Position numbers and translations under genes: made by a program. A DNA stretch of 64,000 bases, taken from Streptomyces sp. NBS 14/10 (GTDB lineage: Bacteria; Actinomycetota; Actinomycetes; Streptomycetales; Streptomycetaceae). The DNA is taken from NCBI RefSeq assembly GCF_002224125.1, contig NZ_NCSM01000057.1, positions 69,899 to 133,898 of the forward strand, read 5' to 3'. Below are positions 1,353-59,315 of this stretch, piece after piece. The notes beneath the pieces were generated by a model that ran no database searches, was not told the origin of the DNA, and was given only the letters and a program-made list of their open reading frames with translations. Numbering within the stretch: the stretch's first letter is position 1; each line of letters starts with the position of its first letter.

Positions 1353-2447
1353 ATGGCCAGCGTCATCGACATCACCGGGCTGCCGTCCGAACGCATCGTC
1401 TTCACCCCCTCCCCGCTCGCCGAGCTGGGCGCCGCGCTGCATGTGCTGTCCGAGCCCGGCCACCACCCGGGGCTGCACGGCTGGGCCACCGCCACGGCCG
1501 CGGGCCTCAAGCCCGACCTCGCCGACCGGCTCCACGAGGCGGACTTCCTGTGGCGCTCCTCCCGCTCCGATCTGCTGCTGCCCGCCGAGCCCGGGGCGAC
1601 GCTCGCTGAGGAGCTGGACGCGCTGGACCGGATCGACGACGAGAGGTTCGTGGCGGCCGCCTTCGAGATCACCTGCTCCCTCACCTCGTACGCCCTTCCC
1701 TCGCCGTCGCCGCTGGTCGACGCGGGCGAGCGGGCGCGGGTACGAGAGCTGGCGGCGGCCCGCGGGCCGAAGCAGGCCGCATTCGTCGACCGGATGCTCG
1801 AGGACCCGGACGGGCTGCGGGTCTGGCTGCGCCGTCTGCTGGAGGACTGCGACCAGGCGTTCTTCGCGGACACCTGGCAGCGGGTGCGGGGCCAGCTGGC
1901 CGCCGACGCCCGCCACAAGGGGGAGCTGCTGCGGCGCAAGGGGCTCGAGGAGGCGCTGGCGGCGACGTCGGCCGCGTTGTCCGTGGTGCCGGGCGGAGGC
2001 GGCGTACGACGTATCCACGTGGACAAGCTCGCCGGGGGTGAGACGACGGCGGTCGGCCAGGGGCTCACCTTCGTCCCGACCGCCTTCGGCTGGCCGCATC
2101 TGCTCGTGCTGTACGCGCCCGGCTGGCCCCCGGTGATCCAGTACCCGGTCGCGGCCCCGGAGCTGCCGCAGCCCGCCGCGCTGGAGCTCGTCCAGCGCCG
2201 GATGGACGCGCTGGCCCACCCGATGCGGATGCGCATGTGCCTCAGCCTCGCCCGAGGCCCGCACACCACCGGCGAGCTGGCCGAGAGGTGCGGCATCAGC
2301 CCGCCGGAGGTCTCCCGCCATATCGCCGTCATGAAGAAGGCGGGGCTGCTGACCACCCGCCGCCGCGGCCGGTATGTGCTGCATCAGCTGGAGCTGACGG
2401 CGGTGGCGCGGCTGGGCAGCGACTTCCTGGAGAGCGTTCTGCGGTAG
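1353..2447 (+). CDS. ArsR-type transcriptional regulator with DUF5937-like N-terminal domain
   Basis: 364 residues. Start chosen at the ATG preceded by 'ATAGGAGCC'; the frame is open further upstream, but that stretch reads as out-of-frame noise. A long N-terminal domain ('ERIVFTPSPLAELGAALHVLSEPGHHPGLHGW') is typical of DUF5937 regulators. The C-terminal ~80 residues form a winged helix: 'MDALAHPMRMRMCLSLARG', 'TTGELAERCGISPPEVSRHIAVMKKAGLL' and wing 'TTRRRGRYVLHQL'. Probably a DNA-binding repressor; the ligand is unknown and no metal-site cysteines are evident. The stop codon lies in the first unit of a triple 21-bp tandem repeat. Confidence 0.85.
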   Translation: MASVIDITGLPSERIVFTPSPLAELGAALHVLSEPGHHPGLHGWATATAAGLKPDLADRLHEADFLWRSSRSDLLLPAEPGATLAEELDALDRIDDERFVAAAFEITCSLTSYALPSPSPLVDAGERARVRELAAARGPKQAAFVDRMLEDPDGLRVWLRRLLEDCDQAFFADTWQRVRGQLAADARHKGELLRRKGLEEALAATSAALSVVPGGGGVRRIHVDKLAGGETTAVGQGLTFVPTAFGWPHLLVLYAPGWPPVIQYPVAAPELPQPAALELVQRRMDALAHPMRMRMCLSLARGPHTTGELAERCGISPPEVSRHIAVMKKAGLLTTRRRGRYVLHQLELTAVARLGSDFLESVLR

Positions 2448-2489
2448 CTGGAGAGCGTTCTGAGGTAGCTGGAGAGCGTTCTGAGGTAG
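2427..2489. repeat. Three tandem 21-bp units spanning the regulator's stop codon
   Basis: Units at 2427-2447, 2448-2468 and 2469-2489, each of the form CTGGAGAGCGTTCTG(A/C)GGTAG. The first unit contains the real stop (TAG, 2445-2447). Because 21 is a multiple of three, each copy carries another in-frame TAG. Units 2 and 3 are identical; unit 1 differs at one base. Confidence 0.97.
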
Positions 2490-2514
2490 CGGGGCCCGGC
2501 AGGGGGAACCGGGG

Positions 2515-3213
2515 CTAGAGCCGGGAGCCGCCGCCCGGGCCCTGGGCGCGTACCAGCCCCGACTCGTACGCCATCACCACCACCTGCACCCGGTCGCGCA
2601 GCTCCAGCTTGGTGAGGATGCGGCCCACATGGGTCTTCACGGTCGCCTCGGAGAGCACCAGGCGCGCCGCTATCTCGCCGTTCGACAGCCCCTGCGCGAC
2701 CAGCAGCATGACCTCGCGTTCGCGGTCGGTCAGCCGCTCCAGCTCGGGGCGGGCTCCGCCGGGCCCGGTGCCGCCGGCCGCGCCCGGCAGCATCGGCGCG
2801 AAGCGGTCCAGCAGCCGGCGGGTGGTGCTGGGGGCGACGACCGCGTCGCCGCTGTGCACGGCGCGGATGGCGGCGAGCAGTTCGCCGGGCGGCACGTCCT
2901 TGAGCATGAAGCCGCCCGCTCCGGCCTTGAGCGCCGAGAACGCGTACTCGTCGAGGTCGAAGGTGGTCAGGATGAGCACCTTGGGCGCGTCCTCCTGCGC
3001 GCAGATGCGGCGGGTGGCCTCCACCCCGTCGAGCCTGGGCATCCGGACGTCCATGAGGACGACGTCCACCTCTGCGGTGCGCAGCACCTCCAGGGCCTCC
3101 GCGCCGTCGCCCGCCTCGGCGACGACCTCCATGTCGGGCTGGGCCGCGAGCACCATCCGGAAGCCGGTGCGCAGCAGCACTTGGTCGTCGACGAGCATGA
3201 CGCGGATCGGCAT
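2515..3213 (-). CDS. NarL/FixJ-family response regulator
   Basis: 232 residues. Receiver domain residues ~1-120 with acidic pair Asp9/Asp10, phospho-acceptor Asp55 ('VVLMDVRMPRLDG') and Lys105 ('GFMLKD'). C-terminal LuxR-type HTH ~165-220 ('LTDREREVMLLVAQGLSNGEIAARLVLSEATVKTHV'). It lies downstream of, and on the same strand as, the DesK-type kinase, which is its presumed phosphodonor; 202 bp separate them. The target genes cannot be read from the sequence. Confidence 0.95.
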   Translation of the reverse strand: MPIRVMLVDDQVLLRTGFRMVLAAQPDMEVVAEAGDGAEALEVLRTAEVDVVLMDVRMPRLDGVEATRRICAQEDAPKVLILTTFDLDEYAFSALKAGAGGFMLKDVPPGELLAAIRAVHSGDAVVAPSTTRRLLDRFAPMLPGAAGGTGPGGARPELERLTDREREVMLLVAQGLSNGEIAARLVLSEATVKTHVGRILTKLELRDRVQVVVMAYESGLVRAQGPGGGSRL

Positions 3214-3293
3214 CCGGTCGGGTCCCTTCCCTCAGCCCCTCAGAGAGCGTTTTCTCAGTGAGCGGGTCATGGTGTGCGTGGTGACACTACCGA

Positions 3294-3419
3294 TCGGCGC
3301 TGATCGGCACGGATCGGCATTGATCGGCCGCACGGCCGATCACGGGCCCAGCAGCGAGGCCCATCAGCAGGGCCCATCAGCACGGTCCATCAGCGGGCCC
3401 ATCAGACACAGCCCATCAG
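3294..3419. repeat. Short repeat clusters between kinase and response regulator genes, including kinase stop
   Basis: Two clusters. Around 3294-3333 four ~10-bp GATCGGC units follow one another. From 3355 to 3419 there are five 12-14 bp units ending in CCATCAG (3355-3367, 3368-3380, 3381-3393, 3394-3405, 3406-3419). On the minus strand each reads CTGATGG, and the kinase stop codon (TGA, complement of 3416-3418) is the TGA of the first unit. Confidence 0.9.
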
Positions 3420-4660
3420 CGGGGCCGCTCGGCCGACCGGCTGAGCGGCAGCAGCGCGCTGATGCGGAAGCCGCCGCCCGGCCGTGGGCCCGCGTCGAGG
3501 GTGCCCCCCACCATGCCGACCCGCTCCCGCATCCCGATCAGGCCGTGCCCCTGGCCGTCCGCGCCGCCGTCCTCGTACATCTCCTGCCGCGCGCCCCGCC
3601 CGTCGTCCTCGACGAGGAGGCCGAGCCCGTCGTCGAAGTAGGTCAGGCGCACACTGGCGCCGACGTCCGGGCCGCCGTGCTTACGGGTGTTGGTAAGCGC
3701 TTCCTGCACGATGCGGTAGGCGGTCAGCTCGACGCCGCTGGGCAGCGGGCGCGGACTGCCCACGATCTTGAAGTCCACGGGCAGCCCGGCGCCGCGCACC
3801 TGCTCCACGAGGTCGTCTATCTGCTCGACGTCCGGCTGCGGGACGTAGTCACTGTCGTCGCTGGGCGCCCCAGAGCGCAGCACGCCCAGCAGCCGCCGCA
3901 TCTCGGCGAGCGCCTGGCGGCCGGTGCCCGAGATCGTCTCCAGGGCCTGCCTGGCCTGATCGGGGGCGGCGTCCATGACATACGCGGCGCCGTCGGCCTG
4001 GACCACCATCACCGACACGTTGTGCGCGACGACGTCGTGCAGTTCGCGCGCGATCCGCGCCCGCTCGGCGGCCACAGCCACCTTGGCCTGCGCCTCGCGC
4101 TCCTTCTCCAGGCGCGCGGCGCGCTCCTCCAGCTGGGCGTAGTAGGCGCGGCGGGTGCGGATGGAGTCGCCGAGCACCCAGGCCAGGACGAACGGGATGG
4201 TGAGGAAGACCGTGCCGATGGCGGCGCCCCACCATGTCCGTTGCTCCGTCTCCGGGTGATCCGGGCCGGGCCAGCGGAGGGTGGAGACGATCGGCGCGAT
4301 CAGGGCCGCGATGAGCGCGAAGCGGGACGCCCAGCGCTTCCCCTCGGCCGCCACCGTGTAGACGACGACCAGCATCGCGAAGTCGGCGGGGTTCTGCTCG
4401 ACGTTCAGTACGACCTGGGCCACCCCGCACACCGTGACGAGGATCAGCATCTTCTCGGGCGCGCGACGGCGCAGCGCGACGGCGGCGCACAGCGCGAGGA
4501 CGACCGGCACGGCCGCGGCGCGCGGCACCGGGTGCATGGGCGCCTTGACCATCCACAGAAGCGAGAAACCGAAGAGGAGGACGGCCCAGAAGCTGTCCAC
4601 CCCTGTCGGGTGCCTGCGGAGGAAGTCGTAGAGGCGCTGCACGTCACCCAGCGTAGGCAT
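3416..4660 (-). CDS. DesK/NarX-type sensor histidine kinase (HisKA_3)
   Basis: 414 residues. Several hydrophobic segments lie within ~24-165. A coiled linker ('YYAQLEERAARLEKEREAQAKV') leads to the HisKA_3 box 'RARIARELHDVVAHNVSVMVVQADG' with phospho-acceptor His208. The C-terminal HATPase_c has the N box 'QEALTNTRKHGG' and G boxes 'VEDDGRG' and 'GHGLIGMRERVGMVGG'. It should phosphorylate the NarL-type regulator encoded downstream. No large extracytoplasmic sensor is visible, so the stimulus is probably perceived within the membrane. Confidence 0.95.
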   Translation of the reverse strand: MPTLGDVQRLYDFLRRHPTGVDSFWAVLLFGFSLLWMVKAPMHPVPRAAAVPVVLALCAAVALRRRAPEKMLILVTVCGVAQVVLNVEQNPADFAMLVVVYTVAAEGKRWASRFALIAALIAPIVSTLRWPGPDHPETEQRTWWGAAIGTVFLTIPFVLAWVLGDSIRTRRAYYAQLEERAARLEKEREAQAKVAVAAERARIARELHDVVAHNVSVMVVQADGAAYVMDAAPDQARQALETISGTGRQALAEMRRLLGVLRSGAPSDDSDYVPQPDVEQIDDLVEQVRGAGLPVDFKIVGSPRPLPSGVELTAYRIVQEALTNTRKHGGPDVGASVRLTYFDDGLGLLVEDDGRGARQEMYEDGGADGQGHGLIGMRERVGMVGGTLDAGPRPGGGFRISALLPLSRSAERPR

Positions 4661-4751
4661 GGTGGATACGTCCAGGGGTCAGCCGGACGGGCGATCCGTG
4701 AGCCGCCGCCCTACGACCCAAGGTGGATACGGCTCCGCTTAGCGTAGGCGT

Positions 4752-5972
4752 GTGGCGACTGAGACACGGGAATGGCTGGGGTGGCGTGACGCCGCCGAAC
4801 ACGCCCTCTACGGACCGGAAGGTTTCTTTCGGCGTACGGAAGGACCGGCCGGGCATTTCCGTACATCGGTGCACGCCTCGCCCCGGTACGCGGCGGCGGT
4901 CGCCGAGCTGCTGGCGCGGGTGGACCGGGCGCTGGGCCACCCTGACGAGCTGGCCTTGGTGGATGTCGGCGCGGGGCGGGGCGAGTTGCTGACGGGTGTG
5001 CTGGCGTGCGCGGCGGGGGTGGCCGAGGGGCAGGGCTCCGGGCTGGCTGAGCGGCTGCGCCCGTACGCCGTGGAGCGGGCGGCGCGCCCGCCCGGCCTCG
5101 ATCCCCGGATCACCTGGCTCGGGGACCTCGGTGAGCTGCCGCGCGACGGCCGCGACGGCCGCGACGGCTTCGACGGCTTCGACGGGCTCGACGGGCTCCT
5201 CTTCGCCAACGAATGGCTCGACAACGTCCCCGTCGACGTGGCGGAGACCGACGCGGACGGCGCCTGGCGCCGGGTCCTGGTCGCCCCCGAGGACGGCGCC
5301 GAACGGCTGGGCGAGCCGGTGAGCGGCGCGGACGCGGACTGGCTGGCGCGCTGGTGGCCGTCGGCGGGGGACTCGGCGGACGAGCCGGGGCTGCGGGCGG
5401 AGATCGGCCGGCCGCGGGACGAGGCGTGGGCGGAGGCGGTACGCGCCCTGCGGTCGGGGCTCGCGGTCGCCGTGGACTACGCGCACGAGCGCGGGGCGCG
5501 GCCCCCGTTCGGGACGCTGACCGGCTTCCGCGAGGGGCGTGAGGTGCGGCCCGTACCGGACGGCTCCTGCGATCTGACCGCCCATGTGGCGCTCGACGCG
5601 TGCGCGGCGGCGGGCGAGGCGGCCCTGCGGGGAGCGGCGACCCTACGGGGCGAGGCGACCCTGCGGCGGATGGCGGATCCCACGCACGAGGATCACTCGC
5701 CCGCGGATCCCTCGCTCGCCCCCGTCACCCTCCCCCAGCGCGACGCGCTACGCGCCCTCGGCGTCGAGGGGCGGCGGCCACCGCTGGCGCTGGCCACCGC
5801 CGACCCGGCGGCGTACGTACGCGCGCTGAGCGCGGCGGGCGAGGCGGCGGAGCTGCTGGACCCGGCGGGGCTCGGCGGCTTCACCTGGCTGCTGCAGCCG
5901 ACGGTCGCGGTGTGCGGCGGGCTGCTGGGGCCGGGGCGGCCGGGCGGGGAGACGGCGGCTGAGAGACGCTGA
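4752..5972 (+). CDS. SAM-dependent methyltransferase, MidA/NDUFAF7 (COG1565) family
   Basis: 406 residues from GTG. N-terminus '[44 protein letters not shown]' is the family's characteristic opening. The SAM motif I is '[14 protein letters not shown]', followed by '[15 protein letters not shown]', the post-I acidic/N-E-W-L-D region of COG1565. The mitochondrial member NDUFAF7 dimethylates an arginine of complex I subunit NDUFS2. The next gene encodes an NDUFS2 homologue, which suggests a matching role here; this is inference. Internal [18 protein letters not shown] repeats and a C-terminal Ala/Arg-rich region are low-complexity insertions. It shares its strand and probably its transcript with nuoD2. 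Confidence 0.85.
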
Positions 5973-6058
5973 GAGACCGGGCTCATGACGGAGGCCGCAA
6001 CATCCGAGCGGCCGGACCCAGGAAACAGCCCGGCTGAGAGACTGGGCTCATGACGGAG
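5968..6058. repeat. 26-bp direct duplication of the nuoD2 start region
   Basis: The block at 6033-6058, which holds the nuoD2 ribosome-binding region and its ATGACGGAG start, is almost exactly repeated at 5968-5993 (one C/T difference). The upstream copy begins at the methyltransferase stop and carries its own ATG at 5985. The spacing is 65 bp, so the two ATGs are in different frames. Confidence 0.95.
5985..6053 (+). CDS. Possible 22-codon upstream ORF overlapping nuoD2 start (ATGA)
   Basis: From the duplicated ATG at 5985 a 22-residue frame ([20 protein letters not shown], then GS) runs to TGA at 6051-6053, overlapping the nuoD2 ATG at 6050 in the arrangement ATGA. Its initiation region is a near-copy of that of nuoD2. 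It may act as a translationally coupled leader or may be a by-product of the duplication. There is no homology to lean on. Confidence 0.35.
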
Positions 6059-7192
6059 ACGACAGTCGGCATCGGCGGTGCCGCCGAGAGCACGGACATG
6101 GTGCTCAACATCGGCCCGCAGCACCCGTCCACCCACGGCGTGCTGCGGCTGCGCCTCGTCCTGGACGGGGAGCGGATCCAGAGCGCCGAGCCGGTGATCG
6201 GGTATATGCACCGCGGCGCGGAGAAGCTGTTCGAGGCGCGGGACTACCGCCAGATCATCATGCTCGCCAACCGCCACGACTGGCTCTCCGCCTTCTCCAA
6301 CGAGCTGGGCGTCGTCCTCGCCGTCGAGCGGATGCTGGGCATGGAGGTGCCCGAGCGCGCCGTATGGACCCGCACCCTGCTGGCCGAGCTGAACCGGGTG
6401 CTCAACCACCTGATGTTCCTGGGGTCCTATCCTCTGGAGCTGGGCGGCATCACGCCGATCTTCTACGCGTTCCGCGAGCGCGAGGACCTTCAGCACGTCA
6501 TGGAGGAGGTCTCCGGCGGCCGGATGCACTACATGTTCAACCGGGTGGGCGGCCTCAAGGAGGACCTTCCGGCGGGCTGGCTCGGCCGGGCCCGCCAGGC
6601 GGTGGCCGAGGTCCGCTCGCGCATGGACGTGTACGACCAGCTGGTCCTCGGCAACGAGATCTTCCGGGGGCGCACCCGCGGGGTGGGCGCGCTGGCGCGC
6701 GAGACGGTGCACGCCTACGGGGTCAGCGGACCCATCGCCCGCGCCTCGGGCGTCGACTTCGACCTGCGGCGCGACGAGCCGTATCTGGCGTACAGGGAGC
6801 TGCGCGACACCCTGAAGGTCGTCGTCCGCGAGGAGGGCGACTGCCTGGCCCGCTTCGAATGCCTGCTGGCGCAGACCCACAACTCCCTGGACCTCGCGGA
6901 CGCCTGCCTGGACCGGATCGCGGAGCTCCCGCCGGGTCCGATCAACCAGCGGCTGCCCAAGGTGCTCAAGGCGCCCGAGGGCCACACCTACGCCTGGACC
7001 GAGAACCCGCTCGGCCTCAACGGCTACTACCTCGTCTCGAAGGGCGAGAAGACGCCGTACCGGCTGAAGCTGCGGTCGGCGTCGTACAACAACATCCAGG
7101 CACTGACCGAGCTGCTGCCGGGCACGCTGGTCGCCGACATGGTGGCCATTCTCGGCTCGCTCTTCTTCGTCGTCGGCGACATCGACAAATAG
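6050..7192 (+). CDS. nuoD2: Orphan NADH-quinone oxidoreductase subunit D (NuoD2)
   Basis: 380 residues of the 49-kDa subunit family (NuoD/NDUFS2), which forms the quinone-site module of complex I. Landmarks: '[23 protein letters not shown]', '[12 protein letters not shown]' (Arg55), '[14 protein letters not shown]', '[17 protein letters not shown]', and C-terminal '[23 protein letters not shown]'. No other nuo gene is nearby, so this is the stand-alone second copy seen in streptomycetes rather than part of the 14-gene operon. Whether it enters complex I or another membrane hydrogenase-like complex cannot be read here. The stop codon is inside a 17-bp tandem duplication. Confidence 0.93.
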
Positions 7193-7209
7193 GCGACATC
7201 GACAAATAG
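7176..7209. repeat. 17-bp tandem duplication spanning nuoD2 stop
   Basis: GCGACATCGACAAATAG occurs at 7176-7192 and again, identically, at 7193-7209. The first copy includes the nuoD2 stop TAG. Confidence 0.97.
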
Positions 7210-7243
7210 CGGTACGAGGAGCCGACGGGCCGTTACGGCGGCC

Positions 7244-8559: not shown

Positions 8560-8587
8560 CTAGTCCTTCACGAGGCTAGTCCTTCAC
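8560..8587. repeat. Duplicated 12-bp unit spanning the binding-protein stop
   Basis: CTAGTCCTTCAC is present at 8560-8571 and 8576-8587 (16-bp period). On the minus strand the gene ends ...GTGAAGGACTAG and the same 12 bases recur 4 nt later, giving a second TAG. Confidence 0.93.
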
Positions 8588-9511: not shown

Positions 9512-9530
9512 TGGGATTCCCCGTCCATAG

Positions 9531-12530: not shown

Positions 12531-12677
12531 AGTGGCTGTGGCTCAGTAGCCGTCGCTCAGTGGCCGCGACTCAGCGGTCGCGGCCCGGCACGCGCTTCGG
12601 CGACCGCGGCCCGGCACGCGCCTCAACGATCGCGCTCAGCCATCGCGACTCAACAGCCGCGACTCAGCGGTCGCCGA
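12528..12677. repeat. Degenerate 14-bp tandem array ending across the esterase stop
   Basis: Units begin CTCA and resemble CTCAGTGGCCGCGA: 12528, 12542, 12556, 12570, then, after a 16-bp duplicated block (GCGGCCCGGCACGCGC, two copies), 12622, 12635, 12649 and 12663. On the minus strand each unit contains TGAG; the unit at 12663-12677 holds the real stop of the esterase gene (complement of 12664-12666). Confidence 0.88.
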
Positions 12678-13940: not shown

Positions 13941-15776
13941 ATGTCTGACAGTCAAGATGCCGAAAAGTCCGGAAGGGTTGCTTCCAGGGTGCCGAGGCTG
14001 CCCCGCGGACCCCGGCCGGAGGCTGTGCCGACCGCCGTGGGCACCGCCTGCACGCTGATCGGGCTGCTGAACATCGTTTTCCCACGACTCCGCTACAGCA
14101 GGGTGCACGCCCTCGCCGACGTGCTGCCCGGCGCGGTGAGTTCGCTGGCCGCCGCCGCGTCCATCGTGGTGGGGCTGTTGTTGCTGATGCTGGCGCACGG
14201 GCTGAAGCGGCGTAAGCGGCGCGCCTGGGTCGCCGCCGTGGGGCTGCTGCCTGTCGGGGCGGCCGCCCAGCTGCTGTACCGGCACTCGATATGCGGGGCG
14301 GTGCTCTCGCTGGTGCTGCTCGGCGTCATGATCCGCTATCGCCGGGAGTTCGCGGCGCTGCCGGATCCGCGCAGCCGCTGGATGGCGCTGGCCAACTTCG
14401 TGGTGCTGGGCGCGGTGAGCGTCGGGATCGGGCTGCTGATCGTACGGTCGGACCCCGACGACATCGTGGGCCGGCCGTCGTTCGGCCAGCAGCTGGACCA
14501 TGTGCTGTGGGGGCTGATCGGCTTCGAGGGGCCGGTCGGCTACCGGGACGGTACGGACTACACCGTCGGCTACTCCCTCGGCGCGCTCGGCCTGCTGACC
14601 GTCGCGACGACCGCCTACCTCGCCTTCCGCCCCGAACACCCCGCCGCCCGGCTGACCCCCGCGGACGAGGAGCGGCTGCGCGACCTGCTCGCCGCGCACG
14701 GGCGCCGCGACTCGCTGGGCCACTTCGCCCTCCGCCGCGACAAGGGCGTGGTCTTCTCGCCGAGCGGCAAGGCCGCCGTCTGCTACCGGGTCGTCTCCGG
14801 GGTGATGCTCGCCAGCGGCGACCCGGTCGGCGATGTGGAGGCCTGGCCGGGCGCCATCTCCCGCTTCATGGAGGAGGCGCGGGCGCACTCCTGGACCCCG
14901 GCGGTCATGGGGTGCAGCGAGACCGGGGGCGAGGTGTGGACCCGGGAGACCGGCCTCGACGCGCTGGAGCTGGGCGACGAGGCCATCGTGCACGTGGCGG
15001 ACTTCACCCTGTCCGGGCGCGCCATGCGCAACGTCCGCCAGATGGTCAAGCGCATCGAGCGGGCCGGGTACGAGACCCGGGTACGGCGCGCCGGTGACCT
15101 GAGCGAGGACGAGCTGGAGACCATCCGGCAGGCCGCCGCGGGCTGGCGGGGCACCGACACCGAGCGGGGCTTCTCCATGGCGCTGGGCCGGATCGGCGAC
15201 CCGGCGGACGGGGACTCGGTCATCGCCACCGCCCACAAGGCCCCCGAGGAGGGCGCCGAGCCCGGCCCGTACGGGGACCTCAAGGCCGTACTGCACTTCG
15301 TGCCGTGGGGCCGGGACGGGATGTCGCTGGACCTCATGCGCCGCGACCGCAGCGCCGACCCGGGCATGAACGAACTGCTGATCGTCGCCTCCCTGCAGGC
15401 CGCCGGGGGGCTCGGGGTCAGCCGGGTGTCGCTGAACTTCGCGATGTTCCGCTCCGCGCTGGCGCGCGGCGAGAAGCTGGGCGCGGGGCCGGTGCTGCGG
15501 GGCTGGCGGGGGCTGCTGGTGTTCCTGTCGCGCTGGTTCCAGATCGAGTCGCTGTACAAGTTCAACGCCAAGTTCCAGCCGCGCTGGGAGCCGCGCTTCG
15601 TGGTCTTCCGCAACACCCGCGATCTGCCGCGCATCGGGTTGGCGGCGATGCAGGCCGAGGGCTTCGTCTCGCTGGCCCTGCCCCGGCTGCTGCGCCGCGG
15701 GCGGCGCCCCGAGCCGAGGCCCTGCGCCCACCAGGGCGCGGCCGCCTCGCGCGGCGGCCTCGAACAGGCCGCGTGA
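13941..15776 (+). CDS. DUF2156 / phosphatidylglycerol lysyltransferase-like membrane protein
   Basis: 611 residues. The N-terminal ~210 residues contain six or so hydrophobic segments. The C-terminal domain begins near 'ERLRDLLAAHGRRDSLGHFALRRDKGVVFSPSGKAAVCYRV' and contains 'KRIERAGYETRVRRAGDL' and 'GMSLDLMRRDRSADPGMNELLIVASLQAA', the GNAT-like fold of MprF/LysX aminoacyl-phosphatidylglycerol synthases. It would transfer an amino acid from aminoacyl-tRNA to phosphatidylglycerol at the inner leaflet, reducing surface negative charge. The amino acid cannot be predicted. Only the synthase half plus a short membrane region is present, so flippase function is doubtful. Confidence 0.88.
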   Translation: MSDSQDAEKSGRVASRVPRLPRGPRPEAVPTAVGTACTLIGLLNIVFPRLRYSRVHALADVLPGAVSSLAAAASIVVGLLLLMLAHGLKRRKRRAWVAAVGLLPVGAAAQLLYRHSICGAVLSLVLLGVMIRYRREFAALPDPRSRWMALANFVVLGAVSVGIGLLIVRSDPDDIVGRPSFGQQLDHVLWGLIGFEGPVGYRDGTDYTVGYSLGALGLLTVATTAYLAFRPEHPAARLTPADEERLRDLLAAHGRRDSLGHFALRRDKGVVFSPSGKAAVCYRVVSGVMLASGDPVGDVEAWPGAISRFMEEARAHSWTPAVMGCSETGGEVWTRETGLDALELGDEAIVHVADFTLSGRAMRNVRQMVKRIERAGYETRVRRAGDLSEDELETIRQAAAGWRGTDTERGFSMALGRIGDPADGDSVIATAHKAPEEGAEPGPYGDLKAVLHFVPWGRDGMSLDLMRRDRSADPGMNELLIVASLQAAGGLGVSRVSLNFAMFRSALARGEKLGAGPVLRGWRGLLVFLSRWFQIESLYKFNAKFQPRWEPRFVVFRNTRDLPRIGLAAMQAEGFVSLALPRLLRRGRRPEPRPCAHQGAAASRGGLEQAA

Positions 15777-15808
15777 CGCGCCCGCTCAGCCCGCGTGACG
15801 CGCCCGCT
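15769..15808. repeat. 18-bp duplication spanning the DUF2156 stop
   Basis: CCGCGTGACGCGCCCGCT occurs at 15769-15786 and, identical, at 15791-15808 (22-bp period). The first copy contains the stop TGA (15774-15776). Confidence 0.96.
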
Positions 15809-22017: not shown

Positions 22018-22193
22018 CCTCAGTCTCAAAAAAGACTGACCTTCGGACGGTACCCCAGCATTGTCACCCGACGCCGCCGTGGACTGTTAACAAATCCGCC
22101 TTCCCCTGCTCCAACGGCGGGAAACCGCGCCAGGTTCCCAGGCGGTTCCCGCACCATCCGAGAAGGGGCTCAGCCGCCCTCCGGGAAGGGCGC

Positions 22194-22757
22194 TCAGCCG
22201 CCGTACACGTGCGGGGCGAGCGTGCCGACGAAGCGCAGGTTGCGGTACTTCTCGGCGTAGTCGAGGCCGTAGCCGACGACGAACTCGTTGGGGATGTCGA
22301 ACCCGACCCATTTCACATCGATGGCGACCTTGGCCGCCTCCGGCTTGCGCAGCAGGGTGCACACGTTCAGCGAGGCGGGCTCGCGCGAGCCCAGGTTGGA
22401 CAGCAGCCACGACAGGGTCAGGCCGGAGTCGATGATGTCCTCGACGATCAGGACGTGCTTGCCCTTGATGTCGGTGTCCAGGTCCTTGAGGATGCGCACC
22501 ACGCCGGAGGACTGGGTGCCCGCGCCGTACGAGGACACGGCCATCCAGTCCATGGTGACCGGGGTGGACAGGGCGCGTGCCAGGTCCGCCATGACCATCA
22601 CCGCGCCCTTGAGGACTCCGACGATCAGCAGATCCTTGCCCGCGTACTCCGCGTCGATCTTGGCGGCCAGTTCGGCCAGCTTCGCGTTGATCTCTTCCTC
22701 GGTGATGAGGACCGACTTGAGGTCGGTGCCCATGTCCTTGTCGTCCACCCGCGCCAC
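22194..22757 (-). CDS. hpt: Hypoxanthine phosphoribosyltransferase
   Basis: 187 residues from GTG 22757 ('[23 protein letters not shown]'), matching the usual length; another GTG lies 8 codons upstream and an ATG 8 codons downstream, and none has a clear Shine-Dalgarno. PRPP-binding loop '[22 protein letters not shown]', flexible loop '[17 protein letters not shown]', and purine-binding '[26 protein letters not shown]'. It salvages hypoxanthine and guanine to IMP and GMP. The tilS-hpt-ftsH order is conserved in many bacteria. Confidence 0.94.
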
Positions 22758-31377: not shown

Positions 31378-32085
31378 GTGCTGGGAATAACAGATCTTTC
31401 GACGTATCTGGCGGGTCTCGCCCTGATCATCCTGCTGCCGGGGCCGAACTCGCTCTATGTGGTCTCCGTCGCCGCCCGCAGCGGCGCGCGCACCGGCTAC
31501 CGTGCGGCGCTGGGCGTGGTGTGCGGGGACACGGCGCTGATGGTGCTGTCGGCGGGCGGGGTGGCCTCGCTGCTGCAGGCGAGCCCGACGCTCTTCGCCG
31601 TGGTGAAGTTCACCGGCGCCGGCTATCTGAGCTGGCTGGCGGTGGGCATGCTGCGCGGGGCGTGGCGGCTGTGGCGGACGCGGGGCTCCCACGGGGCGGA
31701 GGGCCTGGGCGGCCCGGACGGCCCGGCGGTGGCCGGAGCCGGGGCTGGGGCCGTGGCTGGGGCCGGAGGCGCCAAGGCGGCGGAGCGGCCGTACCGCAAG
31801 GCGCTGGTGATCAGCTTGCTGAACCCGAAGGCGATTCTGTTCTTCATTTCCTTCTTTGTGCAGTTCGTGGACCCGGACTACGCCCACCCGGTGCTGTCCT
31901 TTGTGGCGCTGGGCGCCTGGGTGCAGCTGTTCAGCCTGACGTATCTGTCGGTGCTGATCTTCACCGGCGCGCATCTGGCGGCGGCCTTCCGGCGGCGGAA
32001 GCGGCTGACCGCCGGGCTGTCGGCGGCGGCGGGCACGGCGTTCCTGGGGTTCGCGGTGAAGCTGTCGCTGAGCAGCGCGGGGTAG
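31378..32085 (+). CDS. LysE-family amino acid exporter, LeuE-like
   Basis: 235 residues from GTG 31378 ('VLGITDLSTYLAGLALIILLPGPNSLYVVSVAARSGARTGYRAALGV'). The PGPN motif and six hydrophobic segments mark the LysE/RhtB family; the start resembles LeuE-type leucine exporters. A Gly/Ala-rich loop ('AVAGAGAGAVAGAGGA') follows segment 3. It lies back-to-back with the tipA homologue, sharing a 123-bp region containing the TipA operator, so TipA may affect its expression. Confidence 0.9.
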   Translation: MLGITDLSTYLAGLALIILLPGPNSLYVVSVAARSGARTGYRAALGVVCGDTALMVLSAGGVASLLQASPTLFAVVKFTGAGYLSWLAVGMLRGAWRLWRTRGSHGAEGLGGPDGPAVAGAGAGAVAGAGGAKAAERPYRKALVISLLNPKAILFFISFFVQFVDPDYAHPVLSFVALGAWVQLFSLTYLSVLIFTGAHLAAAFRRRKRLTAGLSAAAGTAFLGFAVKLSLSSAG

Positions 32086-32222
32086 CGGCGCGGGGCCTGC
32101 GGTTCGGGGGCGGCGAGGGGATCGGGGGGAGCGGCGCGGGAACGGGATATTCGACTGATACACCCGTATTGTCACCAAGGTCAGCCGACGGCTCTCATAC
32201 GACCGAGGGGACTGGGCGGCCC

Positions 32223-33711: not shown

Positions 33712-33795
33712 GCCGTCGGCCCGTCCGGGGCGCGGCAGCCCGTACACGGCTCGGCCGTCGGCCCGTCCAGGGCGCGGCCATCAGCCCGTCTGCGA
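33712..33795. repeat. Imperfect 42-bp tandem duplication spanning the stop of the caspase-like unknown gene
   Basis: Units 33712-33753 and 33754-33795 both begin GCCGTCGGCCCGTCC and share the following GGGCGCGGC block; the second, differing by a few bases and a 3-bp shift, contains the stop (complement of 33781-33783). A separate GCCGGGCCGGATGCCGGG duplication at ~33659-33702 follows the gad stop. Confidence 0.75.
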
Positions 33796-37985: not shown

Positions 37986-38017
37986 CTGGAGGCAAGGCCT
38001 GCTGGAGGCAGGGCCTA
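37986..38017. repeat. Tandem 16-bp repeat spanning the response regulator stop
   Basis: CTGGAGGCAAGGCCTG (37986-38001) and CTGGAGGCAGGGCCTA (38002-38017) are adjacent; the second contains the stop of the gene read on the minus strand (complement of 38015-38017). Confidence 0.9.
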
Positions 38018-43313: not shown

Positions 43314-43376
43314 GCCGGTCGCCCTCCCGGGCAGTTGCCTCCGACCGGAGCGACTACCCCCGATCGGCTGCCCCGG

Positions 43377-43482
43377 CCTGCTACACCCCGACCTGCTACG
43401 GCCCCCGCCTGCTACACCCCGAACTGCTACACCCCCGTCGGCTACACCCCGGCCTGCTACACCCCCGGCGGCTACTGCTCCG
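43377..43482. repeat. Seven ~15-bp tandem units spanning the DinB gene stop
   Basis: Units starting at 43377, 43392, 43408, 43423, 43438, 43453 and 43468, consensus CCTGCTACACCCCGA. On the minus strand each has TAG; the first unit after the coding end (43468-43482) includes the real stop (complement of 43472-43474). At 15-bp spacing many of these TAGs are in frame with the gene. Confidence 0.96.
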
Positions 43483-46862: not shown

Positions 46863-47366
46863 ATGGGGACCGAAGGCTCGACCATGCTGGAGCCCGTGTG
46901 GCTGGGGCTCCCCTCGATCGACGCTCCCGGCGTCTCCGGTTCCGCCTCCTGCTCGCTGCCCGCCCGCTTCGAAGCGGTCCAAGGAGCCCGGCGGTTCACC
47001 GGCGCCACGCTCGCACAGTGGGAACTCCCGGAGATGTTCGACGAGGTCGCCCTGGTCGTCTCCGAGCTGGTCACCAACGCCCTGCGCCATGCCTGCCCCG
47101 GCGTCCGCCCGGACGGCCCGCCGGGTACGGAGGCCGAGGCGCAGGTGCGGCTGCACCTGATGCGCTGGCGCTCACGGCTGGTGTGCGCGGTCCGGGACCC
47201 GAGCGAGAAGAGCCCGGTGGCCGGCGAGGCCGACTTCAGCCAGGAGTCGGGAAGAGGGCTCTATCTCGTGGAGTCCTTCACCGACGACTGGGGCTGGCAT
47301 CCGCTGGCCGGGACGCTGCGCGGCAAGGTCGTCTGGGCGCTGTTCCTGCTGCCGCGACCGCGATAG
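46863..47366 (+). CDS. HATPase (anti-sigma/SpoIIAB-like) ATP-binding protein
   Basis: 167 residues from ATG 46863 (GGAG 7 nt upstream). Histidine-kinase-like ATPase fold: N box 'EVALVVSELVTNALRHACPG', G1 'LVCAVRDPSEKSP', G2 'ESGRGLYLVESFTDDWGWHPL', 'GKVVWALFLL'. No phosphotransfer His domain, so an anti-sigma-type kinase. Divergent from the XRE-DUF5753 gene, the common streptomycete arrangement. The stop lies in a duplicated 13-bp unit. Confidence 0.93.
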   Translation: MGTEGSTMLEPVWLGLPSIDAPGVSGSASCSLPARFEAVQGARRFTGATLAQWELPEMFDEVALVVSELVTNALRHACPGVRPDGPPGTEAEAQVRLHLMRWRSRLVCAVRDPSEKSPVAGEADFSQESGRGLYLVESFTDDWGWHPLAGTLRGKVVWALFLLPRPR

Positions 47367-47380
47367 GTGCCGCGACCGCG
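47350..47380. repeat. Duplicated 13-bp unit flanking the HATPase stop
   Basis: TGCCGCGACCGCG occurs at 47350-47362 and 47368-47380 (18-bp period); the stop TAG (47364-47366) lies between the copies, at the end of the first 18-bp period. Confidence 0.85.
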
Positions 47381-48640: not shown

Positions 48641-48730
48641 CGGGATGAATCAGACCGGGCCGAATCAGACTGCGACGAATCGGACCGGGATAGGCCAGGA
48701 CGGTTCAGGCCGGAACAGATCAGGCCAGGT
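48641..48730. repeat. Six tandem 15-bp units spanning the DUF397 stop
   Basis: Units start at 48641, 48656, 48671, 48686, 48701 and 48716 (e.g. CGGGCCGAATCAGAC, CAGATCAGGCCAGGT). The last unit contains the real stop (complement of 48720-48722). 15-bp spacing keeps the TGA of several units in frame with the gene. Confidence 0.9.
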
Positions 48731-50543: not shown

Positions 50544-50687
50544 TGACGGCTCCAAGGTTCGAGATTTCGAACACCATTCGTCACTCCGGACGGAAAGTAG
50601 GGGCGCCGCGCCTCAGGGTCAACCCCTTTCACAGCCGTGGCCTCACCTCCGCCGGTTTTGTCAGACCCCCCTGTCACACTCACCAAC

Positions 50688-52409
50688 ATGAGATGGGCGC
50701 TGGCTGAGACGGGTGACGGGGGCGCTCGTCTCTGCCCGCTGGACCCCGCGGGGCGGGCCGCCGGTCCGATCGTCGAGGTCACGGCCGCGGCCGGGGGCGC
50801 CGTCGAGGCCGTACGGTCCCGGCCGGAGGTCGAGCGCTGGGTGTGGCGGTCGACCGCCGAGCTCTACCCGCGGCTGCTCGCCGCGGGCGTCCGCGTCGAG
50901 CGGTGCTACGACCTGGAGGCCGCCGAGGCCCTGCTGCTCGGCCACGAAGGGCGGTGCGGCGAGCCGCGTTCGCTGACCGCGGCGTGGGCGCGGCTGCGCC
51001 GGCTGCCGGTCCCCGAGGACCCGCCGGTGCGAGCTGCCGAGACACAGCCGTCGCTCTTCGAGCCCGGCCCGGTGCCGCTGCCGCCCGGCACCGACCCCCT
51101 CGACGCGCTGCTGGCGGTCTACGCCGGACAGCTGACCCGTACCGAGGCGGCCGAGCACCCCGGCCGGATGCGGCTGCTGACCGCGGCCGAGTCGGCCGGG
51201 ACCCTGGTGGCGGCCGAGCTGCGCCGGGCCGGGGTGCCCTGGCGGGCCGACCGCCACCGCGAGCTGCTGGACGAACTGCTCGGCGAGCGTTACCCGGGCG
51301 GTCTGGAACCGCGGCGGCTGGCCGAGCTGGCCGACGAGGTGTCCCGCGCTTTCGGGGGCGTACGGGTGCGGCCCGATCTGCCGGCCGAGGTCCTCAAGGC
51401 GTTCGCGCGCGCGGGCATCTCGCTCAGCTCCACCCGTGCCTGGGAGCTGCGGGACATCGACCACCCCGCCGTGGAGCCGCTGCTGCGCTACAAGAAGCTC
51501 TACCGTCTGCACACCGCGCACGGCTGGGCGTGGCTGCAGTCCTGGGTGCGGGACGGCCGCTTCCGCCCCGAGTATGTGCCCGGCGGCACGGTCTCCGGCC
51601 GCTGGACCACCAACGGCGGCGGAGCGCTGCAGATCCCCAAGGTGGTGCGGCGGGCGGTGGTCGCCGACGAGGGGTGGCGGCTGGTGGTCGCCGACGCCGA
51701 CCAGATAGAGCCACGTGTCCTGGCGGCCGTCTCCCGCGATCCGGGCCTGATGGAGATAGCGGGCAGCGGGCGGGATCTGTACGCGACGCTGTCCGACCGC
51801 GCCTTCTCCGGCCGGCGCGACCAGGCCAAGCTCGCACTCCTCGGCGCGATCTACGGCCAGACCTCGGGCGACGGCCTCAAGCACCTCGCGGCCCTGCGGC
51901 GCCGCTTCCCGGCCGCCGTGGCGTACGTGGACGAGGCGGCCCGGGCCGGTGAGGAGGGGCGGCTGGTGCGCACCTGGCTGGGCCGCACCTGCCCGCCCGC
52001 CTCCGCGGGCGGCGACCCGGCCGACGAGGCGGGCCTGCCGCGCGACCAGGACGAGGAGCCGACGTACGGCAGCACGGCCGGCGCCCGCGCCCGCGGGCGG
52101 TTCACCCGTAACTTCGTCGTCCAGGGCAGCGCCGCCGACTGGGCGGTGCTGGTGCTCGCCGCGCTGCGGCAGTCGCTGGCCGGGGCGGGGCTCCGCGCTG
52201 AGCTGGTGTTCTTCCAACACGACGAGGTCATCGTGCACTGCCCGGCCGAGGAGGTCCCGCAGGTGCGGGAGGCGATCGCGGCGGCGGGCGAGACGGCGGG
52301 GCGGATCGCCTTCGGCGAGACGCCCGTGCGGTTCTCGCTCACCGCGGCCGCCGTGCAGTGCTACGCCGACGCCAAGGACAACCCGGACGTCGGCGAGTAC
52401 GGCGAATAA
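50688..52409 (+). CDS. Pol I-like 3'-5' exonuclease/DNA polymerase without 5' nuclease
   Basis: 573 residues from 'MRWALAETGDGGARL'. The C-terminal ~350 residues form a family A polymerase palm: motif A 'VVADADQIEPRVLAAVSRD', motif B 'RDQAKLALLGAIYGQTSGDGL' (Lys and Tyr), motif C 'LVFFQHDEVIVHCPAEE'. Usual Pol I motif A is DYSQIELR and motif C is VHDE, so both show conservative changes. The N-terminal region is exonuclease-like but reduced. This is a streptomycete-specific second polymerase; substrate and role are not known. The stop is in a tandem repeat. Confidence 0.92.
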   Translation: MRWALAETGDGGARLCPLDPAGRAAGPIVEVTAAAGGAVEAVRSRPEVERWVWRSTAELYPRLLAAGVRVERCYDLEAAEALLLGHEGRCGEPRSLTAAWARLRRLPVPEDPPVRAAETQPSLFEPGPVPLPPGTDPLDALLAVYAGQLTRTEAAEHPGRMRLLTAAESAGTLVAAELRRAGVPWRADRHRELLDELLGERYPGGLEPRRLAELADEVSRAFGGVRVRPDLPAEVLKAFARAGISLSSTRAWELRDIDHPAVEPLLRYKKLYRLHTAHGWAWLQSWVRDGRFRPEYVPGGTVSGRWTTNGGGALQIPKVVRRAVVADEGWRLVVADADQIEPRVLAAVSRDPGLMEIAGSGRDLYATLSDRAFSGRRDQAKLALLGAIYGQTSGDGLKHLAALRRRFPAAVAYVDEAARAGEEGRLVRTWLGRTCPPASAGGDPADEAGLPRDQDEEPTYGSTAGARARGRFTRNFVVQGSAADWAVLVLAALRQSLAGAGLRAELVFFQHDEVIVHCPAEEVPQVREAIAAAGETAGRIAFGETPVRFSLTAAAVQCYADAKDNPDVGEYGE

Positions 52410-52467
52410 CCGGCGAGTACACCGAATAAGCCGCGTAGCCGAATACGCCGAATACGCCGAATAGGCC
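52391..52467. repeat. 20-bp and 9-bp tandem units spanning the polymerase stop
   Basis: CGGCGAGTACGGCGAATAAC (52391-52410) is followed by a near-copy (52411-52430), then three 9-bp GAATACGCC-like units at 52441-52467. The first 20-mer contains the stop TAA (52407-52409); the second repeats it. Confidence 0.85.
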
Positions 52468-54489: not shown

Positions 54490-55298
54490 CCGCGCAGGCG
54501 CACCACGCCGGGCACGACGCCGTCGCCGCGTACGTACTCGGCGTGCTCGACGACGCGGACGCCACCTATTTCGAGCAGCACCTCGCCGGTTGTGACGACT
54601 GCGGACGCCGCCTCGACGAGCTGGCAGGCATTGAGCCCATGCTGGCGGAGCTGGCCTCCGGCGTCCCCGGCATCCACGGCGCCCCCGGCCGGCCCGGGCT
54701 CACAGGCGTCCCGCACTCCTTCACCGCCACCCCCAACGGCATCGACACGCTCACCGCGAGCCCCAGCCCGGGGCTGCTGGACAACATGATCGGCGAGGTC
54801 GCCGTGGTCCGGCGCAAGCGGCGCCGCCGGCACCTCTCCCTGGTGGCCGCGGCCGCTGTGCTGATCATCGGCGGACCGCTCGGCGCGGTGGCCCTCACCT
54901 CCGACGACGGCTCGTCCACGACCATCAGCGCCGAGACCACCGCGAGCAAGACCTTCGAAGCGATGCCCACCAAGGTCCAGGCCACCGACCCGGACACCAA
55001 GGTGAACGCCACGATCGCCCTGAAGGACAAGATGTGGGGCACCGACGCCATGCTGCGGCTGAAGAACGTCAAGGGCCCCCTGGCGTGCAGCATGATCGCG
55101 GTCTCCAAGAGCGGTGAGAAGCAGGTCATGACGACCTGGTCGGTGCCGCCTCAGGGGTACGGCATCGCGGACAGCCCGGACAAGAGCGCCCAGGCTCCCC
55201 TGTTCACCCAGGGCGGCGCGGCCTTCAAGGCGGCCGACATCGACCACTTCGAGATCCGCACGCTCGACGGAAAGCTCCTGGTCTCTGTGAGTGCCTGA
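54486..55298 (+). CDS. Membrane anti-sigma factor with ZAS zinc domain (partner of first ECF)
   Basis: 270 residues. ZAS motif H-x3-C-x2-C at His32-Cys36-Cys39 ('FEQHLAGCDDCGRRLDEL') binds zinc and the sigma factor. One transmembrane segment ~118-137 ('HLSLVAAAAVLIIGGPLGAVAL') separates the cytoplasmic part from an extracellular domain of ~130 residues. It should hold the sigma factor until an envelope signal triggers release; the nearby site-2 protease is a possible but unlinked processor. The stop falls in an 18-bp tandem repeat. Confidence 0.92.
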   Translation: MTAQAHHAGHDAVAAYVLGVLDDADATYFEQHLAGCDDCGRRLDELAGIEPMLAELASGVPGIHGAPGRPGLTGVPHSFTATPNGIDTLTASPSPGLLDNMIGEVAVVRRKRRRRHLSLVAAAAVLIIGGPLGAVALTSDDGSSTTISAETTASKTFEAMPTKVQATDPDTKVNATIALKDKMWGTDAMLRLKNVKGPLACSMIAVSKSGEKQVMTTWSVPPQGYGIADSPDKSAQAPLFTQGGAAFKAADIDHFEIRTLDGKLLVSVSA

Positions 55299-55358
55299 GT
55301 CGACGTGAAGGTCTGAGTCTCCGTGAATGCCTGAGTTTCTGCGAAGGCCTGAGCCCGA
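55287..55358. repeat. Four tandem 18-bp units spanning the anti-sigma stop
   Basis: Units 55287-55304, 55305-55322, 55323-55340 and 55341-55358, e.g. GTGAGTGCCTGAGTCGAC. The first contains the real TGA (55296-55298); each of the others has TGAG at the same place, so an in-frame TGA repeats every six codons. Confidence 0.96.
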
Positions 55359-55494
55359 GCAGCCTCCTCCCTCACCCCCACCCCCACCATCACTCGAACC
55401 GCCGATCATGGCGTGCGCCGATGTGAGCGCGGTGTTACACAGAGTGTGACAGTCGTCACCGCGTCCCGGGGGGTCAGGATCCGAGGAGGCACCC

Positions 55495-57021: not shown

Positions 57022-57169
57022 CGTCGGCCTCCTCGCGGCCGGCCTCCGCGCGCCTTCGGGGTCGGCGCGGAAAGCGGGCCCGGACAGGAAACCCGGCGAG
57101 GTGACGTATCGCTTCCGCCTGGGCCCGCGTTTTTGCCGAGGCCGCGCTTCTTTGCCGTACGCGGGCCCA

Positions 57170-57254
57170 TACGCGGTTACGGTCCGTACGCGGTTACGGT
57201 CCGTACGCGGTTACGGTCCGTACGCGCGCACAGCCCGTACGCGTGCACGGCCGG
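57170..57254. repeat. Five tandem 17-bp units upstream of lspA
   Basis: TACGCGGTTACGGTCCG occurs three times exactly (57170, 57187, 57204), followed by two degenerate copies (57221 TACGCGCGCACAGCCCG, 57238 TACGCGTGCACGGCCGG). The spacing of 17 bp is 1.6 turns, so not simply helix-phased. Confidence 0.95.
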
Positions 57255-57272
57255 CCGTACTCGGGTACGACG

Positions 57273-57306
57273 GAGGGCCCGCAGGCGCCATTGCCTGCGG
57301 GCCCTC
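57273..57306 (-). terminator. GH5 gene terminator
   Basis: Perfect 14-bp stem GAGGGCCCGCAGGC/GCCTGCGGGCCCTC with a 6-nt loop, ~40 nt downstream of the GH5 stop on the minus strand. Confidence 0.88.
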
Positions 57307-57345
57307 GCTGTCCACCGCCGGGGTGCGGCGGCCGTGCCAAAGGGA

Positions 57346-58632: not shown

Positions 58633-58976
58633 TCGGTGAGACTCCTGAGAAATTGGGGGATGGCTGTTTTCAGGACGCTGGGGGTATTCGTCGGAGGGTC
58701 CAGACATTCCACTCGCGGGTCGGAGACTGCGGTCAGCCGGACTAGCCGCGCGCGAGGAAGGAGATCTGCGACCAACAGGTCGAGTCGGAGCCATTTCCAG
58801 CTCGACTTGTCCACGTCGATGAGCACCACGTCCGGCTGCCTCCGCTCGGCCAGCGAAATTGCTTCGCGTACCGATCTGGCGGCGCCGACCAGTTCCAGTC
58901 CGGGTGTTTCGTCGACCAGGTCGGCGATCGCACTCGAAACCAGATGGTGGTGCTCCACGACGAGAACTCTTTTCAT
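58629..58976 (-). CDS. Stand-alone receiver-like protein lacking the acidic pocket
   Basis: 115 residues, AAGGAG upstream of ATG. Folded like a response-regulator receiver: beta1 'KRVLVVEHHHLVSSAIADLVDETPGLELVG', beta3 'PDVVLIDVDKSSWKWLRLDLLVADLLPRARLVRLTA'. The usual DD pair is Glu-His, the Asp of 'LIDVD' is kept, but the switch Thr/Ser and Lys regions ('RLTAVSDPRVECLDPPTNTPS') are weak, and there is no output domain. Probably an unphosphorylated pseudo-receiver. It is first in a two-gene unit with GH5 (4-bp overlap). Confidence 0.8.
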   Translation of the reverse strand: MKRVLVVEHHHLVSSAIADLVDETPGLELVGAARSVREAISLAERRQPDVVLIDVDKSSWKWLRLDLLVADLLPRARLVRLTAVSDPRVECLDPPTNTPSVLKTAIPQFLRSLTE

Positions 58977-59310
58977 CGGTGGAGCTCCTTCAGGCGGCTT
59001 TCCCTTTCGTTCAACGACATTAGGGAATCCACCGGGGCCGAATCACCGTACGCACGACTGAAATCTCGCTACCTCAATTGCGGGAATGCCGGGCACGCCA
59101 AACGGCCGAATTCCGCCTACCTCGATTGAGGTAGGCGGAATTCGGCCGCCTTGATGGCTTTATGTCCGATTTTGGGCGTCGATTTCGCTCCGCTGCGCGC
59201 TGGATCAGTGACAGTGAGTAACGTTCGAAGGCCGCAGAAGGCCCAGGAAGCGGATCAGGAGGTCAGTGGATCAGGAGGTCAGTGGACCAGGCGCTCAGTG
59301 GACCAGGCGC
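58977..59310. promoter_or_regulatory. 334-bp gap with a 46-bp perfect hairpin
   Basis: Between the GH6 gene and the pseudo-receiver/GH5 unit, both on the minus strand. Contains the long hairpin (separate entry), the half-site CTACCTCAATTG at 59070-59081 resembling the hairpin centre TACCTCGATTGAGGTA, and the 16-bp repeat array at its GH6 end. Must include the receiver/GH5 promoter. Confidence 0.55.
59103..59148 (-). terminator. 46-bp perfect inverted repeat (21-bp stem, GATT loop)
   Basis: Arms 59103-59123 (CGGCCGAATTCCGCCTACCT plus C) and 59128-59148, no mismatch, loop GATT. On the minus strand the right side is followed by TTT. It is 160 nt past GH6 and 127 nt upstream of the pseudo-receiver start, so it may terminate GH6 transcripts, act as an operator, or both. 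Stem length exceeds every other hairpin in this window. Confidence 0.75.
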
Positions 59311-59315
59311 TCAGT
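59252..59315. repeat. Four 16-bp units spanning the GH6 stop
   Basis: GGATCAGGAGGTCAGT (59252, 59268) and GGACCAGGCGCTCAGT (59284, 59300): two pairs of identical units. The last includes the GH6 stop (complement of 59311-59313); each unit contains the same TCAGT (minus strand ACTGA). Confidence 0.96.

Follow-up and report, generated by a model that had tools for sequence, protein, structure and literature searches.

We analysed a stretch of 64,000 nucleotides from Streptomyces sp. NBS 14/10 (contig NZ_NCSM01000057.1, positions 69,899 to 133,898; "the window" means this whole stretch), in which short tandem arrays lie at or near the stop codons of genes on both strands. The window is on contig 81 of the 12.1 Mb source genome (G000) and has a GC content of 71%; in a comparison of one protein, the closest named relatives found were S. 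milbemycinicus (97%), then S. sparsogenes (91%) and, at 84-86%, the S. violaceusniger group with its neighbours. Genes were called with a simple custom codon-model caller, which gave 55 or 56 genes in the window depending on the training set, and arrays were called with Tandem Repeats Finder (TRF; score at least 30, period 9-60). A sequence-only reading of the window had placed the stop codons of at least 14 genes inside tandem duplications; all 14 gene ends are among those of our caller, and 11 of the 14 stops do fall inside a TRF array. That list was incomplete, since the stops at 5972, 22194 and 32085 are also covered, and 14 of the 55 window stop codons are covered by TRF arrays.

On the forward strand, arrays span the stop codons at 2445-2447 (2427..2490, 3.0 copies of a 21-bp unit, with the copied TAG in frame), 5970-5972 (5958..5977, two copies of 10 bp), 7190-7192 of a complex I 49-kDa-like gene (7175..7209, 2.1 copies of 17 bp), 15774-15776 of a phosphatidylglycerol lysyltransferase-like gene (15765..15808, 2.0 copies of 22 bp), 32083-32085 (32071..32095, 1.9 copies of 13 bp) and 52407-52409 (52391..52429, 2.0 copies of 20 bp), and at the gene end 55298 each of the four copies of an 18-bp unit (55277..55353, TRF period 36) holds an in-frame TGA. 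On the reverse strand, the stops spanned are 3416-3418 of a HisKA_3 sensor kinase gene (3330..3423, a 13/26-bp array), 22194-22196 (22157..22202, two copies of 24 bp), 33781-33783 (33736..33790, 2.4 copies of 23 bp), 43472-43474 (43371..43475, a 15/30-bp array) and 59311-59313 (59252..59317, 4.1 copies of 16 bp), and arrays reach the stops at 12664-12666 (12617..12666, 3.6 copies of 14 bp) and 38015-38017 (37986..38016, 1.9 copies of 16 bp). The three listed stops outside any TRF array are those of 8576, 47366 and 48720. At the first, a 12-bp two-copy repeat with a shift of 16 (8560..8587, reverse strand) was not called by TRF, and its copy at 8576-8587 ends in the stop 8576-8578; at the second, a 13-bp two-copy repeat, likewise not called (47350..47380, forward strand), flanks the stop 47364-47366 with copies at 47350-47362 and 47368-47380; at the third, 3.3 copies of a 15-bp unit (48641..48690, reverse strand) start about 30 bp past the stop 48720-48722, beside it and not spanning it. 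The statement that each array copies the last codons together with the stop fails by eye at 33781, 47366 and 48720, where the copy lacks an exact stop.

Array enrichment in the proximal 3' flank

The window is an exceptionally array-rich sample of its own genome. Its arrays touch one start codon, by a single base, and when they were shifted at random 1000 times they covered 4.15 stops on average and 11 at most (p ~0.001). Over 845 kb sampled out of 12.1 Mb, arrays of TRF score at least 50 cover 33 stops versus 6 starts of 689 (shift null: mean 16.0, standard deviation (sd) 3.9, maximum 30), and those of score at least 30 cover 51 stops and 12 starts (null mean 32.4, sd 5.3, maximum 55); the excess at stops survives permutation at the higher score and lies within the range of the null at the lower, and starts are less affected than stops. 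In the part of the 845 kb outside the window, 37 of 634 stops are covered (5.8%), versus 25% in the window (Fisher p ~1e-5).

For the comparison of genomes, strict arrays were defined by a self-match score of at least 14 in stretches of 80-845 kb per genome, with genes less than 200 bp from a stretch end dropped. The 11 genomes counted were G000, five relatives of its clade, four other Streptomyces and one member of another family, and strict arrays cover 69 stops versus 9 starts of 1648, comprising 26 versus 4 of 687 in G000, 34 versus 3 of 661 in the clade genomes, 7 versus 1 of 248 in the other Streptomyces and 2 versus 1 of 52 in the other family. We also examined 80 named loci, the surroundings of one gene, in the clade (9), other Streptomyces (46) and Nocardia (25); arrays hold 6 stops and no starts of 87 at the clade loci, and 1 stop and no starts of 227 at the Nocardia loci. 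Chance self-similarity is negligible, since 340 kb of noncoding DNA contains 271 arrays, versus 1 in first-order Markov resamples.

Density was measured by position in ten genomes, counting only periods not divisible by 3, which excludes in-frame coding repeats. After the stop it was 1.40 arrays per kb at 0-50 bp, 0.99 at 50-100 bp and 0.55 at 100-200 bp; in the 200 bp leading up to starts it lay at 0.26-0.32, and it was 0.17 at greater distances and 0.006 in coding sequence. Left edges keep a roughly constant density between 10 bp inside the gene and 30-40 bp beyond its end and become sparser after that; across the stop itself the density is flat (2.23 per kb just inside versus 2.5 just outside). 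These contrasts identify the proximal 3' flank as the enriched feature, and the common feature that the sequence-only reading had seen in the gene end thus lies in the ~100 bp that follow the stop and not in the stop codon as such. That similar repeats are far rarer inside genes holds per kb (0.18 in coding sequence versus 1.88 within 100 bp of a stop, ten genomes) but not by number (291 coding arrays versus 155 near stops), and 97% of the coding arrays have a period that is a multiple of 3.

Units differ between genes, each locus having its own, as had been noted in setting aside a single transposed element. When 936-2600, which includes the 2427-2490 array, was searched against its own genome, no further match over the array was found except a paralogue of the gene, matching only into the first bases of the array; this search covered one of the 17 listed repeats, with 40 of 934 first-look candidates scored. 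Because units differ and this search found no second locus, a dispersed repeat family or mobile unit, akin to mycobacterial interspersed repetitive units (MIRU) or repetitive extragenic palindromes (REP), was rejected. The arrays have instead the properties of minisatellites or variable number tandem repeats (VNTR): units of ~10-60 bp lie head to tail (TRF and self-match scan), with a length of 9-30 bp in 238 of 305 noncoding or stop-spanning arrays, and copy number varies between close relatives at 55298, one of four gene ends aligned (6 copies in S. milbemycinicus versus 4 here). They could serve as strain markers.

Orthologous 3' ends were compared within the printed flanks of five clade genomes. 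Most window arrays, including that at 2427..2490, are missing from these flanks, and relatives carry other arrays of their own. The 55298 array is absent from S. sparsogenes, S. violaceusniger and S. rugosispiralis; the last two species are also without the 52409 array, which S. milbemycinicus shares. A related 17-bp copy lies at the 7192 orthologue in G400 and G071 and is decayed in G181; in G112 this orthologue has a separate 23-bp duplication, and the orthologous stop of 33781 has its own four-copy array of 29-30 bp. Orthologue assignments for 38015 and 43472 were below 54% identity and were not relied on. Judged from these alignments, the compared arrays are lineage-specific, and those of relatives at these loci arose separately.

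Stop codons are not targeted

If the only rule is that a duplication reaching past the stop is silent, the density of left edges at a distance x inside the gene equals the flank density multiplied by the share of units longer than x. We took the flank density (0-40 bp) and the unit lengths of noncoding arrays from six clade genomes, dropping arrays that lie more than 95% inside genes, and this silent-duplication model predicted 28.9, 18.1, 8.7, 3.2 and 1.6 left edges in successive 10-bp bins of the last 50 coding bases, stop first; 30, 19, 8, 0 and 0 were observed. At a stricter score, 18.3, 12.2, 5.5, 1.2 and 0.9 were expected versus 18, 9, 4, 0 and 0 observed. Since the silence rule alone gives this fit, attraction to the stop is not needed, and stop codons are not targeted by the arrays. 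The earlier suggestion that duplications are tolerated at gene ends is thus supported: a stop-spanning copy does not change the protein, and this premise by itself is enough for a model to predict the array edges inside coding sequence.

Two functional proposals of the sequence-only reading fared less well. That arrays are selected as extra termination codons against read-through is extremely unlikely. The copied stop is often identical (42 of 55), the 55298 array keeps its in-frame TGA in all copies both here and in S. milbemycinicus, and any-frame stops are slightly commoner in array flanks (1.73 versus 1.33, p = 0.04), an excess that copying alone would yield. However, the same-frame preference of a tandem-stop element is missing, as the period is divisible by 3 in only 17 of 55 stop-copying arrays (p = 0.78); for arrays inside genes, the figure is 296 of 301. 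Retention of the stop is no higher than that of other triplets (819 of 1220, p = 0.19) and is equally frequent whether the copy lies in frame (14 of 19) or not (30 of 41; these 60 arrays include overlapping ones, which the set of 55 excludes), and in-frame stops in the next 80 bases number 0.53 with arrays versus 0.40 without (p = 0.24).

A functional 3' messenger RNA element built from the repeats, such as a terminator, a stability hairpin or a Rho site, is very unlikely as well. The arrays do sit in the 3' flank, and swaps of 3' untranslated regions (3'UTRs) are reported, in excerpts of a review (PMC7821165), to alter expression in staphylococci. Against this, flanks with arrays are no more stably folded than ordinary ones (mean folding z -0.45 in 150 flanks versus -0.57 in 116 sampled flanks without arrays, p = 0.90), G/C skew does not differ (p = 0.74), Rfam gives no match in the window at gathering thresholds, units vary by gene and many orthologues are without an array.

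Tolerance and birth of the duplications

The pattern is real, and its explanation is ordinary: silent, locus-private, recent duplications probably accumulate in weakly constrained 3' flanks, and the stop would have no special function in this. Tandem duplications would gather in the first ~100 bp after genes because this is the least constrained class of DNA measured, and they would take in the stop because a copy of any segment reaching past it leaves the upstream copy, and hence the protein, unchanged. A duplication over a start or within a gene would alter the protein or its expression and would mostly be removed. Most of the difference between 3' and 5' flanks may come from purifying selection and not from more frequent birth, with duplications presumably arising without homology seeds and later growing or shrinking. 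Such a scheme would offer a simple quantitative rule for compact genomes, in which a duplication survives wherever the upstream copy keeps the gene whole.

Support for tolerance comes from three relatives that are pairwise 96-97% identical over the first 80 kb. Intergenic regions were taken from 103 of 133 conserved adjacent pairs, the rest being too short or too long. A further region of synteny, at 7.5 Mb in G181, was without a full counterpart in G071 or G400. Sites differing in at least one of the three make up 13.4% of the first 50 bp after stops versus 8.0% of fourfold sites; ahead of starts it is 3.9% over the nearest 50 bp, and 0.033-0.051 per site within 200 bp. When columns close to gaps or loose arrays are set aside, the corresponding rates are 9.6% after stops and 3.3% before starts. 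The first 50 bp after stops changes fastest of all classes measured, and at a GC content of 71% the fourfold sites could themselves be under constraint. A loose array is present in at least one of the three genomes at 43-45% of the alignment columns within 100 bp of stops; a sizeable part of the 3' flank DNA of the clade is therefore repeat-derived. Insertions and deletions (indels) of at least 4 bp number 10.2 per kb in the first 50 bp after stops versus 1.45 per kb in the last 50 bp ahead of starts. Indels other than tandem copies are concentrated after stops too, with 74 in the 7.7 kb that lie within 100 bp of a stop versus 9 in the 8.3 kb equally close to a start. Clean tandem copies account for 13 of 133 indels of at least 6 bp, a share that is a lower bound (strict definition, low gap penalty). 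Since general, not specifically tandem, indels pile up after stops, these data favour tolerance.

The rival explanation is a mutational hotspot, in which the DNA just past a gene gives rise to duplications at a higher rate, for instance through breaks or stalled forks tied to transcription termination and mended by end joining, and the duplications are then merely tolerated. Substitution above the fourfold level in the first 50 bp after stops would fit it too, with the reservation on fourfold sites given above, and several observations weigh against tolerance as the explanation. Among near-perfect, presumably young arrays, the density within 100 bp of stops is already 2.2 times that within 100 bp of starts and ~4.6 times that in distal codirectional and divergent DNA (20, 11 and 7 arrays), which leaves room for a difference in birth rate; the 2.2-fold excess is nevertheless compatible with either reading, and selection against promoter insertions would yield the same pattern. 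At 50-100 bp after stops, where arrays are still dense, the clean-column rate (7.0%) is below that of fourfold sites. In the first 50 bp, 39 of 47 indels coincide with a loose array or adjoin one, so that indels are not a clean independent measure of tolerance; the overlap of indels with arrays there is 48 of 65, slightly above the 64% given by local array coverage. Array-free indels (19 events) do not correlate significantly with array density by zone (Spearman 0.18; Pearson 0.66 with p = 0.10), and deriving array density from independent indel tolerance was given up despite good agreement between zones, because the majority of indels coincide with arrays and too few are free of them. After removal of coding-like noncoding DNA, the 100-bp 3' flank has 1.29 arrays per kb versus 0.71 in distal convergent, 0.27 in codirectional and 0.18 in divergent DNA, with 0.29 in the 5' flank; missed genes were rejected as the cause of the low distal density, since the contrast persists in this set. 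At the 46 non-clade Streptomyces loci, 7 stops versus 6 starts of 444 lie in arrays, although 100-bp flank coverage is still 8.8% on the stop side versus 1.9% on the start side. Finally, both coding bins beyond 30 bp are empty, versus 4.8 left edges expected under the silent-duplication model.

The junctions of the arrays bear on their birth. Among exact arrays with a period of at least 14, 32 had a matched stretch of about unit length or longer; the 21 with at most 3 bases of homology beyond the unit averaged 0.71 bases, versus 0.84 from base composition. The test leaves out 11 arrays with at least 5 extra bases (mostly of more than two copies) and 20 with a match shorter than the unit, and this selection could hide a minority of arrays with microhomology. 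Junction homology at chance level speaks against an origin by slippage between repeats that were already there, and the slippage that the sequence-only reading had put forward is thus not supported as the birth step in this small, selected sample of fresh two-copy arrays. End joining is a possible source, and Ku was found in all 11 genomes examined; both the junctions and the presence of Ku agree with a hotspot. Array density, however, does not track Ku matches: G007 has 3 matches (2 over the cut-off) and 0 of 50 stops in arrays, G376 has 2 matches and 9 of 70 stops, and Ku gene number was rejected as a driver because no relation was visible by eye over the 11 genomes. Nor do clean tandem copies, among relatives, make up more of the indels found in 3' flanks (5 of 79) than of those found elsewhere (8 of 54). 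Tolerance is thus better supported than a birth-rate hotspot, though not proven, and we regard the hotspot as unlikely. Equally doubtful, in our estimation, is the wider proposal that Streptomyces and some other actinobacteria have a mutational process making seedless tandem duplications of 10-30 bp, preferentially in the 100 bp downstream of genes, by which 3' flanks would be rebuilt from gene ends.

Lineage spread, known systems and neighbouring repeats

Strict arrays cover 6-22% of the first 100 bp after stops in eight of ten Streptomyces genomes and 0 and 0.7% in the other two; the value is 8.8% for the six clade genomes and 0.6% for one Streptomyces megaplasmid stretch. Outside Streptomyces, coverage after stops is 11% over 100 kb of Nonomuraea and 9% over a 50-kb stretch of one Arthrobacter plasmid. 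It is 0.05% in the 25 Nocardia loci, at 68% GC, and zero for both Rhizobium and E. coli, of which 50 kb each were sampled. From small samples, and with the Nocardia loci all lying around one gene, the contrast with Nocardia suggests that lineages differ in the rate at which duplications are born, and it points to a repair or replication factor.

Titles and abstracts of the literature, a scope that most subscription papers fall outside, yielded no locus-private tandem duplications over bacterial stop codons, including those of Streptomyces. The comparisons that follow draw on excerpts of the cited papers. The closest report is that of a shared TAACTGA heptamer in Beggiatoaceae, which overlaps 13 stops (PMC4679880). 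These, too, are short head-to-tail repeats with stop codons, but there one heptamer occurs at many loci, mostly oriented toward the downstream start, whereas each Streptomyces array has its own longer unit and a position that follows the end of the upstream gene. Conservation drops abruptly at the stop codon in the 3'UTRs of several bacterial groups (Menendez-Gil et al. 2020, via review PMC7821165), and orthologous 3' flanks there diverge at the stop while coding sequence is conserved, as in our case; the processes named in the review excerpts are rearrangements, local nucleotide changes and insertion sequences, not tandem duplication. The repeats of archaeal Borgs (PMC9879509) resemble ours in having private, fast-evolving units, which are all multiples of 3 within genes and mostly not between them, and in that some arrays begin within gene ends. 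Borg repeats, however, are perfect, A-rich, of at least three units and extrachromosomal, whereas the Streptomyces arrays are chromosomal, GC-rich, often imperfect and often two-copy; a repeat of Borg type was therefore rejected for the window. The VNTR and MIRU loci of Mycobacterium tuberculosis (PMC2734929) are likewise actinobacterial intergenic minisatellites, and one VNTR of variable copy number starts 40 bp past the rnc stop codon; MIRU differs in being a dispersed repeat family.

The arrays can mislead the annotation of gene ends. In a comparison with loci L079-L081 and L152, the C-terminal tail of the gene at 50637-52409, which adjoins repeat-rich 3' DNA, occurs here and in S. milbemycinicus, is different in S. 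sparsogenes and is missing from S. violaceusniger and S. rugosispiralis; the stop has moved. As a general source of C-terminal tails the arrays were rejected, as 12 scorable array genes were no different from 37 others in how their tails depart from those of orthologues (p = 0.40), the extended tail of the 52409 gene notwithstanding. Within G000, the stop is spanned by a strict array in 1 of 178 called genes on contig 73 (220 kb) versus 17 of 236 on contig 81. Inside the gene at 22794-23864 (reverse strand), 2.1 copies of a 57-bp unit, a multiple of 3, lie at 23023-23141 and have the top score among 150 of the 179 TRF calls. Between the gene end at 955 and the called start at 1353, 4.7 copies of an 18-bp unit occupy 1000-1084, and since a longer reading frame (936-2447) crosses this repeat, the true start of the gene is uncertain.

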